Source of the DNA: Austwickia sp. TVS 96-490-7B
GTDB taxonomy: Bacteria > Actinomycetota > Actinomycetes > Actinomycetales > Dermatophilaceae
DNA: 64,000 bases
Assembly (NCBI RefSeq): GCF_019331795.1
Contig: NZ_JAHPZL010000003.1
Span: 161,888 to 225,887, forward strand
Direction: 5' to 3'
Shown here: positions 59,373 through 64,000 of the stretch, in pieces
Position numbering within the stretch: the first letter of the stretch is position 1
How the letters are laid out: every line of letters begins with the position of its first letter
Position numbers and translations under genes: made by a program
Notes under the pieces: model-generated
What the model was told of the DNA's origin: nothing
The model's database searches: none
Seen by the model: the letters and a program-made list of their open reading frames with translations, nothing else

Positions 59373-59378
59373 CCAGGA

Positions 59379-59433
59379 CTGTCGTCACGGCACGGCGCCG
59401 ATCCAATCAACCCGGCCCGCGCTGTGACGACAG
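59379..59433 (+). terminator. Possible long-loop terminator after the secreted protein gene
   Basis: CTGTCGTCAC (59379-59388) is the exact complement of GTGACGACAG (59424-59433) across a 35-nt loop, starting seven bases after the stop. The long loop makes its function uncertain. Confidence 0.4.
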
Positions 59434-60222
59434 CTCGACAGATACCTGACGGTGACACCACCTTTGTAGAGCTGTGATGACGCACCCATTAATGGAGCTC
59501 ACACATTGTCTTCATCATGTCTTGGGCGACAACGCGCCCGAGGCATGATTCCCACTCCAGGTGGGGGCAACGATGAGCGAGTCTGGTGCCACCCGCGGAC
59601 CCTGGCCTGGCCCTGGCGGCATGTATGTGTGCTGGCCCACATGTCTTTGATCAAGTGTCATATGGCTGGGCGATAGCTTTACTTTCTTGGGCACTGGGAT
59701 GTCTATTTATGCCGAATCGACGAAAGCGCAGTAGCAGACCAGCCCAGCAGGTCCACGTTCAGTCCATATGCCCCGAACACCCAGCCAGCTGCTGCCACTG
59801 CTAAGTCAGCCGCACATTCTCCGTGCAGGTCGGTTTTGTTGCAGCAATTTCCGCTATTCCCAGACTCGCACTCCCCCGAGGTAAGCCGGTGGGGCGGTAG
59901 AAATTAGGAGCCCATCAACACACCCACATCACTAGCCAAACCAGCCTTCGCGCCGAGCCGATCAGTCAAGATCCACACCTATCCCTTAGCCACTTCTGCC
60001 ACATAGGCCACAAATGACACTTGCATATCATCGCCTATCGGGTCATCGTGGCAGATCCTTAGATCACTTAGCCCCGTACTGACCAATTCGTCGTTAAACT
60101 CACTGTCCAAGACATCGCTGCAGTCCGCGCTAAATAGCCATGCTCAGCGCATTGTGTCATGTGCGGAAAACGACCGTTTCGCCACCGCCACCGCCACCGA
60201 TCCAGGAAGGGACCCTGCTTCC
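59434..60222. other. 790-bp gap preceding the glycosyltransferase operon
   Basis: Composition appears to drop towards AT-rich from about 59850. The only sizeable frame, 59586-59804 (72 residues, GTG start, one possible membrane helix YGWAIALLSWALGCLFM), has no good ribosome-binding site and I do not call it. The gap probably holds the promoter of the glycan genes and may mark the left edge of an acquired segment. Confidence 0.4.
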
Positions 60223-61176
60223 ATGGCGCATGACCCCTTAGTAACCATTGCCATTCCGGCCTATCAGGCAGAGCGCACTGTAGGAGGTGCCATCAGTTCC
60301 GCGCTCACCCAGATATATCCTCACAAAGAGATTATCGTCTGCGACGATGGCTCCACAGATAGCACATCAGCAATCGCCCACGCCTACGGCTCCCAGGTCA
60401 CTGTGGTCAACCAAGATAATGCGGGCGTCGCAGCAGCGCGAAATGCAGCGATCAACGCTGGAAGAGGCGATCTGATCGTCCCCCTTGACGCTGATGACCT
60501 CTGGTTTCCCCGCTATGTAAGCCAGCTGGTCGATATGTGGAAGAAAAATGGTGGTGGTCGACGACTCATTGCTTCCACCGCTTTTTTTCTCACTGATGCT
60601 GGTATCAACACACGTCGTCGGATCATCACCAAAAAAATACCCCGTCATCAGTTACGTAAACGCGCCCTCGAAGGGCCATTCATGCCGATCTTTGCACTGT
60701 ACCCACGGGCACTTCATGATGAGCTGGGCGGCTTCGACACTACATTGCGCACCGCGGAGGACTACGACTTCTGGCTCCGGGCCGTTTTTCATGAATGGCA
60801 CGTTGACTTCCAGCTTGAACCCCATGCCTGCTACCGACGTGCGGGCCATTCTTTGTCAAGCAATATCACCCAGATGATGCACGACGAACAAGGCGTACTC
60901 AAGAGACTTCTTCACGATCCACTGATTCGTTTAACTGACGAGGAGCGAGCTTATATCAACGCACGATTAGCAACTGAGCAACCATTAAAACTCATTCAAC
61001 GCGGGGAACAAGCCGTCAAGGAGGGGCGCCGGATAGACGCAGCGCAGGCATTCCAAGAAGCAGCACACATCTGGCCGAGTCACACTGGCTTACGACGGAA
61101 AGCCTGGCTACTTCAGATCCCCGGCAGCACCCAGGTGCTCTCCCGATTGCAAGACCGCCGACATAGGGAAACCTGA
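60223..61176 (+). CDS. Family 2 glycosyltransferase with C-terminal TPR-like helices
   Basis: 317 residues from the ATG at 60223, with AGGAAGGGA about ten bases upstream; the frame is open further. GT-A fold: VTIAIPAYQAERTVGGAISSAL, nucleotide-sugar segment IIVCDDGSTDSTSAIAH, metal-binding IVPLDADDLWFPRYV, and the acceptor-side TAEDYDFWLRAV containing the E-D catalytic-base motif. The last ~70 residues (LIQRGEQAVKEGRRIDAAQAFQEAAHIWPSHT) resemble one to two TPR helices, which may tether the enzyme in a complex. It is cytosolic and probably adds one sugar to a surface-glycan repeat. First gene of a three-gene operon. Confidence 0.9.
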   Translation: MAHDPLVTIAIPAYQAERTVGGAISSALTQIYPHKEIIVCDDGSTDSTSAIAHAYGSQVTVVNQDNAGVAAARNAAINAGRGDLIVPLDADDLWFPRYVSQLVDMWKKNGGGRRLIASTAFFLTDAGINTRRRIITKKIPRHQLRKRALEGPFMPIFALYPRALHDELGGFDTTLRTAEDYDFWLRAVFHEWHVDFQLEPHACYRRAGHSLSSNITQMMHDEQGVLKRLLHDPLIRLTDEERAYINARLATEQPLKLIQRGEQAVKEGRRIDAAQAFQEAAHIWPSHTGLRRKAWLLQIPGSTQVLSRLQDRRHRET

Positions 61177-61215
61177 TCAGCCATCACCACATCCCCTACC
61201 CGCTGAGGTGCCCCT

Positions 61216-62151
61216 ATGAAACAGACTGATAGTGACACCAGTGTCCGCCTTCCAGCCCCACTCGTCAGTGTCATTATTCCTACCTATCAACGCGCAGACC
61301 GCATCTACCAAACCGTGATGAGCGCCCTCCAACAGACCTTCACCGATGTAGAGGTCATCGTGATTGACGACGCCAGCACTGATCACACTGTTGACGTCAT
61401 CCAGGGCATCGACGATTCCCGGCTGCGACTCATTGTGCACCAGATTAATCGGGGCGGTAACGCGGCGCGACAAAGTGGTATCGACGCAGCCAAGGGGACG
61501 TGGGTCGCTTTTTTAGATAGTGATGATCTCTGGGAACCAGACAAATTATCGAAACAGTTGACACGCTTGAAAGAAGCCGGACCACAATACCATTTCTGTT
61601 ATACCTGGTTTGATCTGCAACTAGATGATGGCAGCGTGCTTCCTGCGCAGAAAGTGGCCATCGAAGGTATGGGGCGGCCTGAACTTCTCGGAGTGCACCT
61701 CATCGGCACATTTTCAACCATGATGATCTCTCGAGAAACACTTCACCAGGCAGGTGGACTTGACCCGACCTTACCTTCGTGTCAGGACTGGGACCTGATC
61801 CTTCGCGTCAGCCCTATGACCGGAATTTGTGTCGTCCCAGAAGTTTTGACACATTATTGGCACGGAGATGGGGAACGAATCAGCACACGATCTTCGTCGG
61901 TCGTGGAGGGACATTACCGCATTTATCAGAAGCTACGGCGTCACTATCCAGAGCTACCGGCTGCACACGTCGAATCTTCCCAAAGATACATTATGGGAGT
62001 CCTGGCCCATCATGGAGCAACACGTCAATTGCTGGAAATCATCAAGGAAATTTATCCGCGCCTCCTCTCGAGGGGCAACCTCACATTCACCGCGCGGATG
62101 GTTGGCCGTTCGATACGTCGCCAGATCAGTCGGGTAGGCACCCATGCCTGA
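61216..62151 (+). CDS. Family 2 glycosyltransferase
   Basis: 311 residues, ATG with GAGGTG six bases upstream. Motifs: LVSVIIPTYQRADRIYQTVMSAL, VIVIDDASTDHTVDVI, WVAFLDSDDLWEPDKL (the D-x-D metal site) and CQDWDLILRV (acceptor-side Q-D-W). It resembles the preceding enzyme in the N-terminal domain but has a different tail (HHGATRQLLEIIKEIYPRLLSRGN), so each probably makes a different linkage. It begins 39 bp after the first transferase and overlaps the third by 8 nt. The sugar donor cannot be read from sequence. Confidence 0.92.
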   Translation: MKQTDSDTSVRLPAPLVSVIIPTYQRADRIYQTVMSALQQTFTDVEVIVIDDASTDHTVDVIQGIDDSRLRLIVHQINRGGNAARQSGIDAAKGTWVAFLDSDDLWEPDKLSKQLTRLKEAGPQYHFCYTWFDLQLDDGSVLPAQKVAIEGMGRPELLGVHLIGTFSTMMISRETLHQAGGLDPTLPSCQDWDLILRVSPMTGICVVPEVLTHYWHGDGERISTRSSSVVEGHYRIYQKLRRHYPELPAAHVESSQRYIMGVLAHHGATRQLLEIIKEIYPRLLSRGNLTFTARMVGRSIRRQISRVGTHA

Positions 62152-64000
62152 CGTTGTGGTAGGAATTCCTACCTATCATCGACCAGAGGGACTCCGCAGG
62201 TTGCTGCGCTCGTTGCGACCTGAAATTCACGGGCGCGCCGCGGTCATCATCGCAGACAACGGATGCCGCACTGACACGACTGCTATCGCTGACAGCGAGC
62301 TGAGCAGCATTCCTCACCTGGTGATCCCAGTCCCCCAATCTGGGGTGTCTCAGGCCCGTAATGCCCTGATTGACACCGCCATTTCTCGCTTCCCCCAGTG
62401 GCAGTGGTTGATGATGCTGGATGACGATGGATGGGTGACTCCAGGGTGGTTGGATCATCTACTCAAGGCAGGACTCACCTATAATGCTGATCTCATAGGT
62501 GGAGTCGTAGACCAGCGTCTTTCTCAGCATCCTTCGCGCATCGTTCGAAATAGCCCAGCCGCCGAGATGAGCCCTTTCCCTACTGGACTGGTGCCACACC
62601 TGGCTGGCGCGCAGAATATCGGCATCCGTAGACGGATAGTTGATGATTTGCCAGCCCCTTGGTTTGACCCAAAGCTAGGTCAAATTGGCAGTGAAGACAC
62701 CGACTTCTTCACCCGAGTCAGCCTGCATGGGGGAATCTTGGCGTGGTCTGCAGAAGCCGTCGTGGTAGAGCCAGTTCCCACGGCTCGATTATCGCCGAAG
62801 ATGCTGCTCAAGCGGGCATACCACGCCAATACAGTCAACGCCCACGTAGCCTTAAAACACCACGATCCTCAGGCAGTCCGCCACCAGATACTGTCGCTAT
62901 TTCCTCATCTAGGTCGAAACGTGATCGCATCAGTGATACGACGAGATCCGGATAGGTTAATCCGCACAGGCTTTGCGGCGACGGGCTTGGCCGGTCGCAT
63001 TAATGGATATTTAGAAGCCCGCATAGGAGCCAGATTTGCCTGGGCACAACGTCATTCCTCACGACACCGGACCTGGATTCGCCATCAGGAAGCCGCACCC
63101 CTGCCCCAGAATGCGGCCTCTGCGCGACAGATTCCACCGATGATGATTCGGCACAGTGCACCACCCCGTTATCTAAATCGCCTCTATCAGCGAGCTCGAT
63201 CCGTATCTCATCAACTTGCTGGCCCACGCCACGCAGAACGAGTTCTTCGCGAGAGATTTCGGGCTTATTATGATCGAGATCTTGATGTCGACCACGCAAA
63301 GCTTTTCACCGAGAAACTGTTTCGCCGGATGATTCTTATGGCGCGCCGCCGTGACACCGGATGGCTACCTTACATCGACACCTTAGCGTTACGAGATCAT
63401 GTCACCGCCACAGTCGGCGCTGGCTACGCCTTACCCGTGCTCTGGCGAGGCACCCGTGCCGATGATATTCCCTTTGAAACGTTACCTCGGCCGTGTGTCC
63501 TAAAGTCCACTCAAGGCTGCGGTCAACATTTCGTCTTGGACGGATCAGAGGATCCGCAAGCAGTGGTATCCCTTGCGCACGGGTGGTCCGGTCAGAGCCC
63601 CCAAAGGGAAAACTTAGAATTTTATTACTACGACATCCCACGGATGCTCTACATTGAACCTTTCCTCAATGATGGATTCGACGACGGCCCCTTAGGTTAT
63701 TATTTTTACACTTTTAACGGAAAAGTGACTGCGATTCAGATTGGCGGCCGCTTAGGAGATGTCGGCATTTTCTATGATGTGCACTGGGAAAAGCTTCCCT
63801 TCCTGGTGCGATCAGTATGCCGTGAATCGCACCCTCCTCGGCCTCATAAATTGGCGGAGATGATCAGCATCGCCGAAAGACTCGGCGCAGATCACGATTT
63901 TGTGAGAGTGGATCTATATTACGTCGACGATCACATCTACGTTGGCAAGATGACGTTTATTCCAGCCAACGGATGGTTGGACTTCAACCCGGCGGAATGG
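62144..64000 (+). CDS. Fusion: family 2 glycosyltransferase + TupA-like ATP-grasp ligase, partial (3' end beyond right edge)
   Basis: I translated this by hand: the frame from the ATG at 62144 is open for 619 codons and reaches the last base. Residues ~1-250 are a GT2 domain: VVVGIPTYHRPEGLRRLL, VIIADNGC, SGVSQARNALID, WLMMLDDDGWVTPGWL and IGSEDTDFFTR. A ~150-residue Arg-rich linker follows. From ~405 the sequence matches the TupA-like ATP-grasp family: LRDHVTATVGAGYALPVLWRG, CVLKSTQGCGQHFVLDG, DHDFVRVDLYYVDDHIYVGKMTFIPANG (metal and ATP ligands in F-V-R-V-D-L-Y). TupA-like proteins are linked to attachment of amino acids or peptides to acidic wall polymers. The chain could glycosylate and ligate the same polymer; that joint role is inferred. 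Confidence 0.85.
   Translation, partial: MPDVVVGIPTYHRPEGLRRLLRSLRPEIHGRAAVIIADNGCRTDTTAIADSELSSIPHLVIPVPQSGVSQARNALIDTAISRFPQWQWLMMLDDDGWVTPGWLDHLLKAGLTYNADLIGGVVDQRLSQHPSRIVRNSPAAEMSPFPTGLVPHLAGAQNIGIRRRIVDDLPAPWFDPKLGQIGSEDTDFFTRVSLHGGILAWSAEAVVVEPVPTARLSPKMLLKRAYHANTVNAHVALKHHDPQAVRHQILSLFPHLGRNVIASVIRRDPDRLIRTGFAATGLAGRINGYLEARIGARFAWAQRHSSRHRTWIRHQEAAPLPQNAASARQIPPMMIRHSAPPRYLNRLYQRARSVSHQLAGPRHAERVLRERFRAYYDRDLDVDHAKLFTEKLFRRMILMARRRDTGWLPYIDTLALRDHVTATVGAGYALPVLWRGTRADDIPFETLPRPCVLKSTQGCGQHFVLDGSEDPQAVVSLAHGWSGQSPQRENLEFYYYDIPRMLYIEPFLNDGFDDGPLGYYFYTFNGKVTAIQIGGRLGDVGIFYDVHWEKLPFLVRSVCRESHPPRPHKLAEMISIAERLGADHDFVRVDLYYVDDHIYVGKMTFIPANGWLDFNPAEW

Follow-up and report, generated by a model that had tools for sequence, protein, structure and literature searches.

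A GT2 glycosyltransferase fused to a TupA-like ATP-grasp domain with substituted catalytic residues in Austwickia sp. TVS 96-490-7B

Introduction

Fusions of a GT2 glycosyltransferase to a TupA-like ATP-grasp domain are enzymes that add amide decorations to capsules during assembly. The closest described example is Cj1438 of Campylobacter jejuni NCTC 11168 (serotype HS:2 capsule), whose single chain runs from a GT2 domain (residues 1-325) through a middle domain (326-452) to a TupA-like ATP-grasp domain (453-776). Both of its halves have been assayed and found active: the GT2 domain transfers GalfNAc to glucuronamide, and the ligase uses serinol-P or ethanolamine-P, not peptides, to amidate glucuronate (PMC11800379). 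For ATP-grasp enzymes in general, four classes of catalytic residue have been described, namely a first Lys, situated in the linker that leads into the RAGNYA module, a second that ends RAGNYA strand 2, an Asp in strand 4 of the C-terminal module and, on the final strand, an E-x-N motif; in the R2K clade, a Lys or Arg in a loop replaces the missing first Lys (PMC4431377).

The gene presented here lies at the end of a 64,000-nt stretch of DNA from Austwickia sp. TVS 96-490-7B (the window). Its product, which we compared with Cj1438 through the published description of the latter, likewise carries an N-terminal GT2 domain and a C-terminal TupA-like ATP-grasp domain in one chain and has a surface-polysaccharide context. 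Because Cj1438 has the same domain order, the architecture is already published and understood, and is not new. The two proteins differ in the region between their halves, as the middle domain of Cj1438 comprises ~127 residues whereas only ~45 separate the last GT2-associated helices (to ~300) from the start of the TupA part (~345) in the protein described here. They also differ in the ligase, which is experimentally active in Cj1438 but has lost catalytic residues in the Austwickia protein. Judged from its sequence, the protein does not appear to be a new kind of enzyme; what appears new is the degenerate ligase half. A first-pass annotation of the locus had proposed an assembly module for a peptide-bearing surface glycan, a proposal that leaned on an old TupA precedent and that sits poorly with the use of serinol-P and ethanolamine-P by the one fusion that has been assayed (PMC11800379).

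Results and discussion

One continuous gene

The reading frame that is open at the end of the window closes 48 nt farther on in the genome (L002:3032-4936) to give a protein of 634 residues with no internal stop, and thus none hidden between the two domains (Table 1). Pfam matches to both families lie above their cut-offs: PF00535 covers residues 6-125 (52.9 bits against a cut-off of 23.3, E 5.5e-14) and PF14305 covers residues 408-626 (71.8 bits against 25, E 8.4e-20). The first-pass annotation was therefore right that a single open frame joins a GT2 domain to a TupA-type ATP-grasp domain.

Table 1. Positions in the window of the three-gene cassette, the parts of the fused gene and its substituted catalytic codons.
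Feature	Position	Strand	Evidence or remark
Cassette gene 1, GT2 glycosyltransferase, 340 aa	60154..61176	+	PF00535, 97.4 bits; 49% identity to its positional counterpart in two sister species
Cassette gene 2, GT2 glycosyltransferase, 311 aa	61216..62151	+	PF00535, 115.4 bits; 54-55% identical to the sister-species gene
Fused GT2 / TupA-like ATP-grasp gene	62144..64000	+	Open to the end of the window; stop codon at 64048, beyond the window
GT2 half, residues 1-300	62144..63043	+	GT-A core 1-215, D93-D95, E184-D185; then low-confidence predicted helices
Arg/His-rich linker, residues 301-340	63044..63163	+	Sequence; compared with L004/L005
TupA-like ATP-grasp half, from residue 345; residue 619 is the last in the window, and residue 634 lies at 64045	63176..64000	+	PF14305; ATP-grasp fold
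Codon 413, Thr for the first ATP-grasp Lys	63380..63382	+	Other TupA domains: Lys 145/147, Arg 2/147
Codon 518 (GGT), Gly for an invariant Asp	63695..63697	+	Other TupA domains: Asp 145/147
Codon 602 (AAG), Lys for the metal-site Glu of the E-x-N/T motif	63947..63949	+	Other TupA domains: Glu 147/147

The genome is a draft in 58 contigs, and errors of assembly or base-calling might in principle have joined two genes or created the odd residues described below. We consider this very improbable indeed, since the gene is far from either end of its 727,704-base contig in a genome that is 100% complete with 0.62% contamination, since the codon-position GC pattern runs continuously through the linker, and since three independent errors at only invariant active-site codons would be implausible. 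A Met-Met pair near residues 334-335 lines up with the N termini of stand-alone TupA relatives; an internal translation start there was rejected because no Shine-Dalgarno-like sequence precedes it.

The GT2 half

The two halves of the protein were modelled separately with AlphaFold2. The core of the first half (residues 1-215) adopts a GT-A fold whose best match in the PDB is WrtF (Z 22.1, rmsd 3.0, 191 residues aligned; VIA-align), with TarS at Z 20.0, and is followed by a region, residues 216-335, that is modelled with low confidence. Comparison with 25 GT2 relatives showed that the catalytic positions are kept, both the DxD-type metal motif at D93-D95 and the ED region at E184-D185, so that the complete GT2 domain with its metal motif, as originally annotated, is borne out and the half looks intact. 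It has the GT-A fold, the DxD-type metal motif and the ED base region in common with GT2 enzymes of the TuaG, EpsD and TarS-TarP types, but its scores against the models for these fall far under their equivalog cut-offs. Its closest relative, ~40% identical, is a separate protein in another genome (G009).

A degenerate ATP-grasp half

Residues 336-619 were modelled as an ATP-grasp fold with a mean pLDDT of 87.7. Its best structural matches, at Z 12-13, are D-Ala-D-Ala ligases, LysX and carbamoyl-phosphate synthetase, among them DdlA (Z 12.8, rmsd 4.0, 202 residues aligned) and LysX (Z 12.6); a sequence search of the PDB returned no structure of a TupA relative. The four residue classes of PMC4431377 were mapped to positions 413, 454, 590 and 602-604 through their motifs and the order of strands, as read from the alignment and the model's secondary structure and not from a superposition, and the protein was compared with 148 other TupA domains, each count covering those that have a residue at the position in question. 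Two classes are kept, as K454 (Lys in 145 of 146 others) and D590 (Asp in 147 of 147), and two, K413 and E602, are lost: the motif at 602-604 reads K-M-T where other TupA domains have Glu-x-Thr/Ser/Ala. E505, R588 and T604 are also kept, and D518 is replaced (Table 1). Over seven catalytic positions, 140 of the 148 other domains show no deviation and eight show one, and the fused protein alone shows three. Position 520 is Tyr and is less telling, because in the nearest clade Ser, Arg or Ile already takes the place of the common Lys there.

Because two defining catalytic features, K413 and the E602 motif, are missing, we do not file this half as a TupA ligase; by sequence and fold it is best described as a homologue of the TupA-like ATP-grasps. 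With key residues lost that all or nearly all relatives keep, it is degenerate and probably no longer forms a peptide-like or amide bond. Modelling confirmed both expected folds, and comparison with relatives brought out three substituted catalytic positions that the first-pass annotation had missed. What stands of its interpretation is a single-chain fusion that ends a lower-GC glycosyltransferase operon in a surface-glycan context, and what is not supported is the idea that the chain couples glycosyl transfer with the ligation of an amide or ester, given Thr, Gly and Lys where the relatives have Lys, Asp and Glu, and the lack of a compensating Lys or Arg after K454. More generally, a PF14305 match over threshold need not mean a working amide ligase.

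It is nonetheless worth considering whether the enzyme might still be bifunctional, with the ATP-grasp half ligating an amine to a uronate through unusual residues. The domain order is that of Cj1438, in which both halves are active (PMC11800379), K454, E505, R588, D590 and T604 are retained, and the genome has two UDP-glucose dehydrogenase-family genes. However, the Glu-to-Lys change at the metal site reverses the charge and occurs in none of 147 relatives, neither the first Lys nor the Asp at 518 is retained, and the loop after K454 contains no Lys or Arg able to stand in for K413 in the manner of the R2K clade (PMC4431377). We therefore regard continued ligation as improbable. That some ATP-grasps relocate their catalytic lysines was counted against the reading we favour, in which catalysis is lost; no candidate residue was seen in the fused protein.

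Decay or retention

If the ATP-grasp half has lost its chemistry, it could be a domain on its way out or one that serves some other purpose. In the tree its terminal branch is long, at 1.41 changes per column where the median is 0.43. Neutral simulation left only 0.4% of copies free of stops at 0.2 substitutions per site, and a long neutral decay is therefore unlikely, whereas at 0.02 substitutions per site the probability of a stop-free frame was 0.54. A short neutral period would thus leave the frame open, and the main rival to a kept pseudo-ligase is accordingly a recent inactivation: an active, Cj1438-like two-step enzyme whose ligase half lost catalysis not long ago and is now a passenger set to decay. 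The long branch, the location of all three losses in catalytic residues and the status of the gene as an accessory one, absent from three sister genomes, would all agree with this. Against it, three separate invariant positions have changed without a single stop or frameshift, and the structural positions are nearly all kept: at 25 of 30 conserved columns (at least 80%) the residue matches, and four of the five mismatches are the charged active-site positions 413, 518, 520 and 602. On balance, recent inactivation seems to us unlikely, though a serious contender.

The reading that we favour, and to which we give about an even chance, is that a working GT2 enzyme carries a TupA-like ATP-grasp domain that has lost ligase catalysis and is kept as an acceptor-binding or scaffold module. 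The product would then be a cytoplasmic GT2 glycosyltransferase with a catalytically dead TupA-like ATP-grasp domain at its C terminus. Its GT2 half might add one sugar to the lipid-linked repeat of a surface polysaccharide, acting in sequence with the two GT2 enzymes encoded upstream, and its pseudo-ligase might bind the acidic glycan acceptor or hold partner enzymes together, with no part in amide formation. Only tentatively do we propose that catalysis was lost after fusion and that the domain has since been stably kept, either for acceptor recognition or scaffolding or with a rebuilt, metal-free chemistry. If true, this would be the first described pseudoenzyme of the TupA family within the searches made, and a natural fusion with a dead ligase half, if such it is, would separate catalysis from acceptor binding in enzymes of this type.

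Distribution and origin of the fusion

The fused gene was found in one genome only. Full-protein scans of genome contigs and viral contigs yielded no close relative of the whole protein, a full-protein search of 395 genomes of the class yielded no other GT2-TupA fusion of this kind, and a search with the TupA half over 396 genomes of the order added 22 further genomes with TupA matches and no fusion. Within the family, PF14305 genes occur in 36 of 188 genomes, and no other one examined is joined to a GT2 domain. The GT2-TupA order was likewise found in none of 80 named relatives from many phyla. To recognise GT2 domains, the check for fusions combined a profile built from the fused protein's own GT2 relatives with Pfam on the longest frames, and it could miss a fusion with a very different glycosyltransferase. 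Of the long open frames that surround other TupA genes and were taken as candidate fusions, Pfam confirmed just one, in a Rhizobacter MAG (L097:5362-7758): a 799-residue frame that joins the same two Pfam families with its catalytic residues intact, but in the reverse order, TupA then GT2, and on a separate branch of the tree.

The nearest relatives of the C-terminal half are separate proteins, up to 38% identical to it. These stand-alone PF14305 proteins, for example from Kineosphaera limosa (L075), Nitrospira and Comamonadaceae, are typically ~300-350 residues long and have the equivalents of K413, D518 and E602 intact with rare single exceptions, whereas the fused protein has lost all three. 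One genus of the family (g41) includes genomes with tandem runs of two or three TupA-like genes, which fall on a separate branch of the tree (L008, L012, L017).

In two Nitrospira contigs (L085, L088) GT2 and TupA reading frames abut. The only match that spans the whole protein, in the genome G370, falls on two adjacent genes; there, GT2 and TupA are separate neighbours in an exopolysaccharide cluster that also has UDP-glucose dehydrogenase-like, flippase-like and polymerase-like genes. In the same cluster (L063:6903-8785) after the TupA gene come a gene with no Pfam match and then a different ATP-grasp, PF14397, which is associated with sugar transfer. The simplest history, as far as sequences can suggest one, would be the fusion of a neighbouring GT2 and TupA gene pair, and the pseudo-ligase may have as its ancestor a uronate-amidating enzyme whose gene adjoined one for a GT2. 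Because every relative found of either half was separate, Cj1438 and the present protein, compared through the former's published description, suggest independent fusions.

The cassette and its surroundings

The second GT2 gene shares 8 nt with the start of the fused gene and follows the first by 39 nt, and we treat the three as one cassette because of this spacing. Third-position GC is ~0.55 in all of them, against 0.67-0.75 in most neighbouring genes, and both plain GT2 genes are real; the claim that the fused gene closes a lower-GC operon of three genes thus holds. The second gene is weakly TuaG-like (NF047683, 126.7 bits against a cut-off of 400). Upstream of the cassette are a gamma-glutamyltranspeptidase-like gene and a polysaccharide pyruvyl transferase gene, and downstream lie a convergent methylmalonyl-CoA mutase gene and then a surface-polysaccharide region with an O-antigen ligase-type gene (PF04932) and hexapeptide acetyltransferase, GT2, GT4 and malectin-domain genes.

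Two sister species have homologues of both plain GT2 genes in exactly the same place (identities in Table 1; 81-82% for the flanking mutase). Third-position GC in these homologues is 0.76-0.88, and they adjoin the mutase with no fused gene in between; no PF14305 gene was found in any of the three sister genomes. The low-GC cassette has the look of an acquired allele, with which the fused gene would have arrived. The glycosyltransferase slot is variable within the genus, given the differing content of the sisters: comparison of 59373-62151 with three contigs (L163, L164, L165) showed the low-GC pair here, its high-GC homologues in two species and, in the third, a lone, different GT2 gene on the opposite strand.

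The downstream polysaccharide region also encodes secreted-looking proteins with a 'WGGxxAxN' core (L002:17365-19092 and L002:19276-19998), and at least one of the WGGxxAxN set has a malectin domain. Another genome of the family (G037) has proteins with this core next to its stand-alone TupA gene (L069:11932-13548 and L069:13805-15892).
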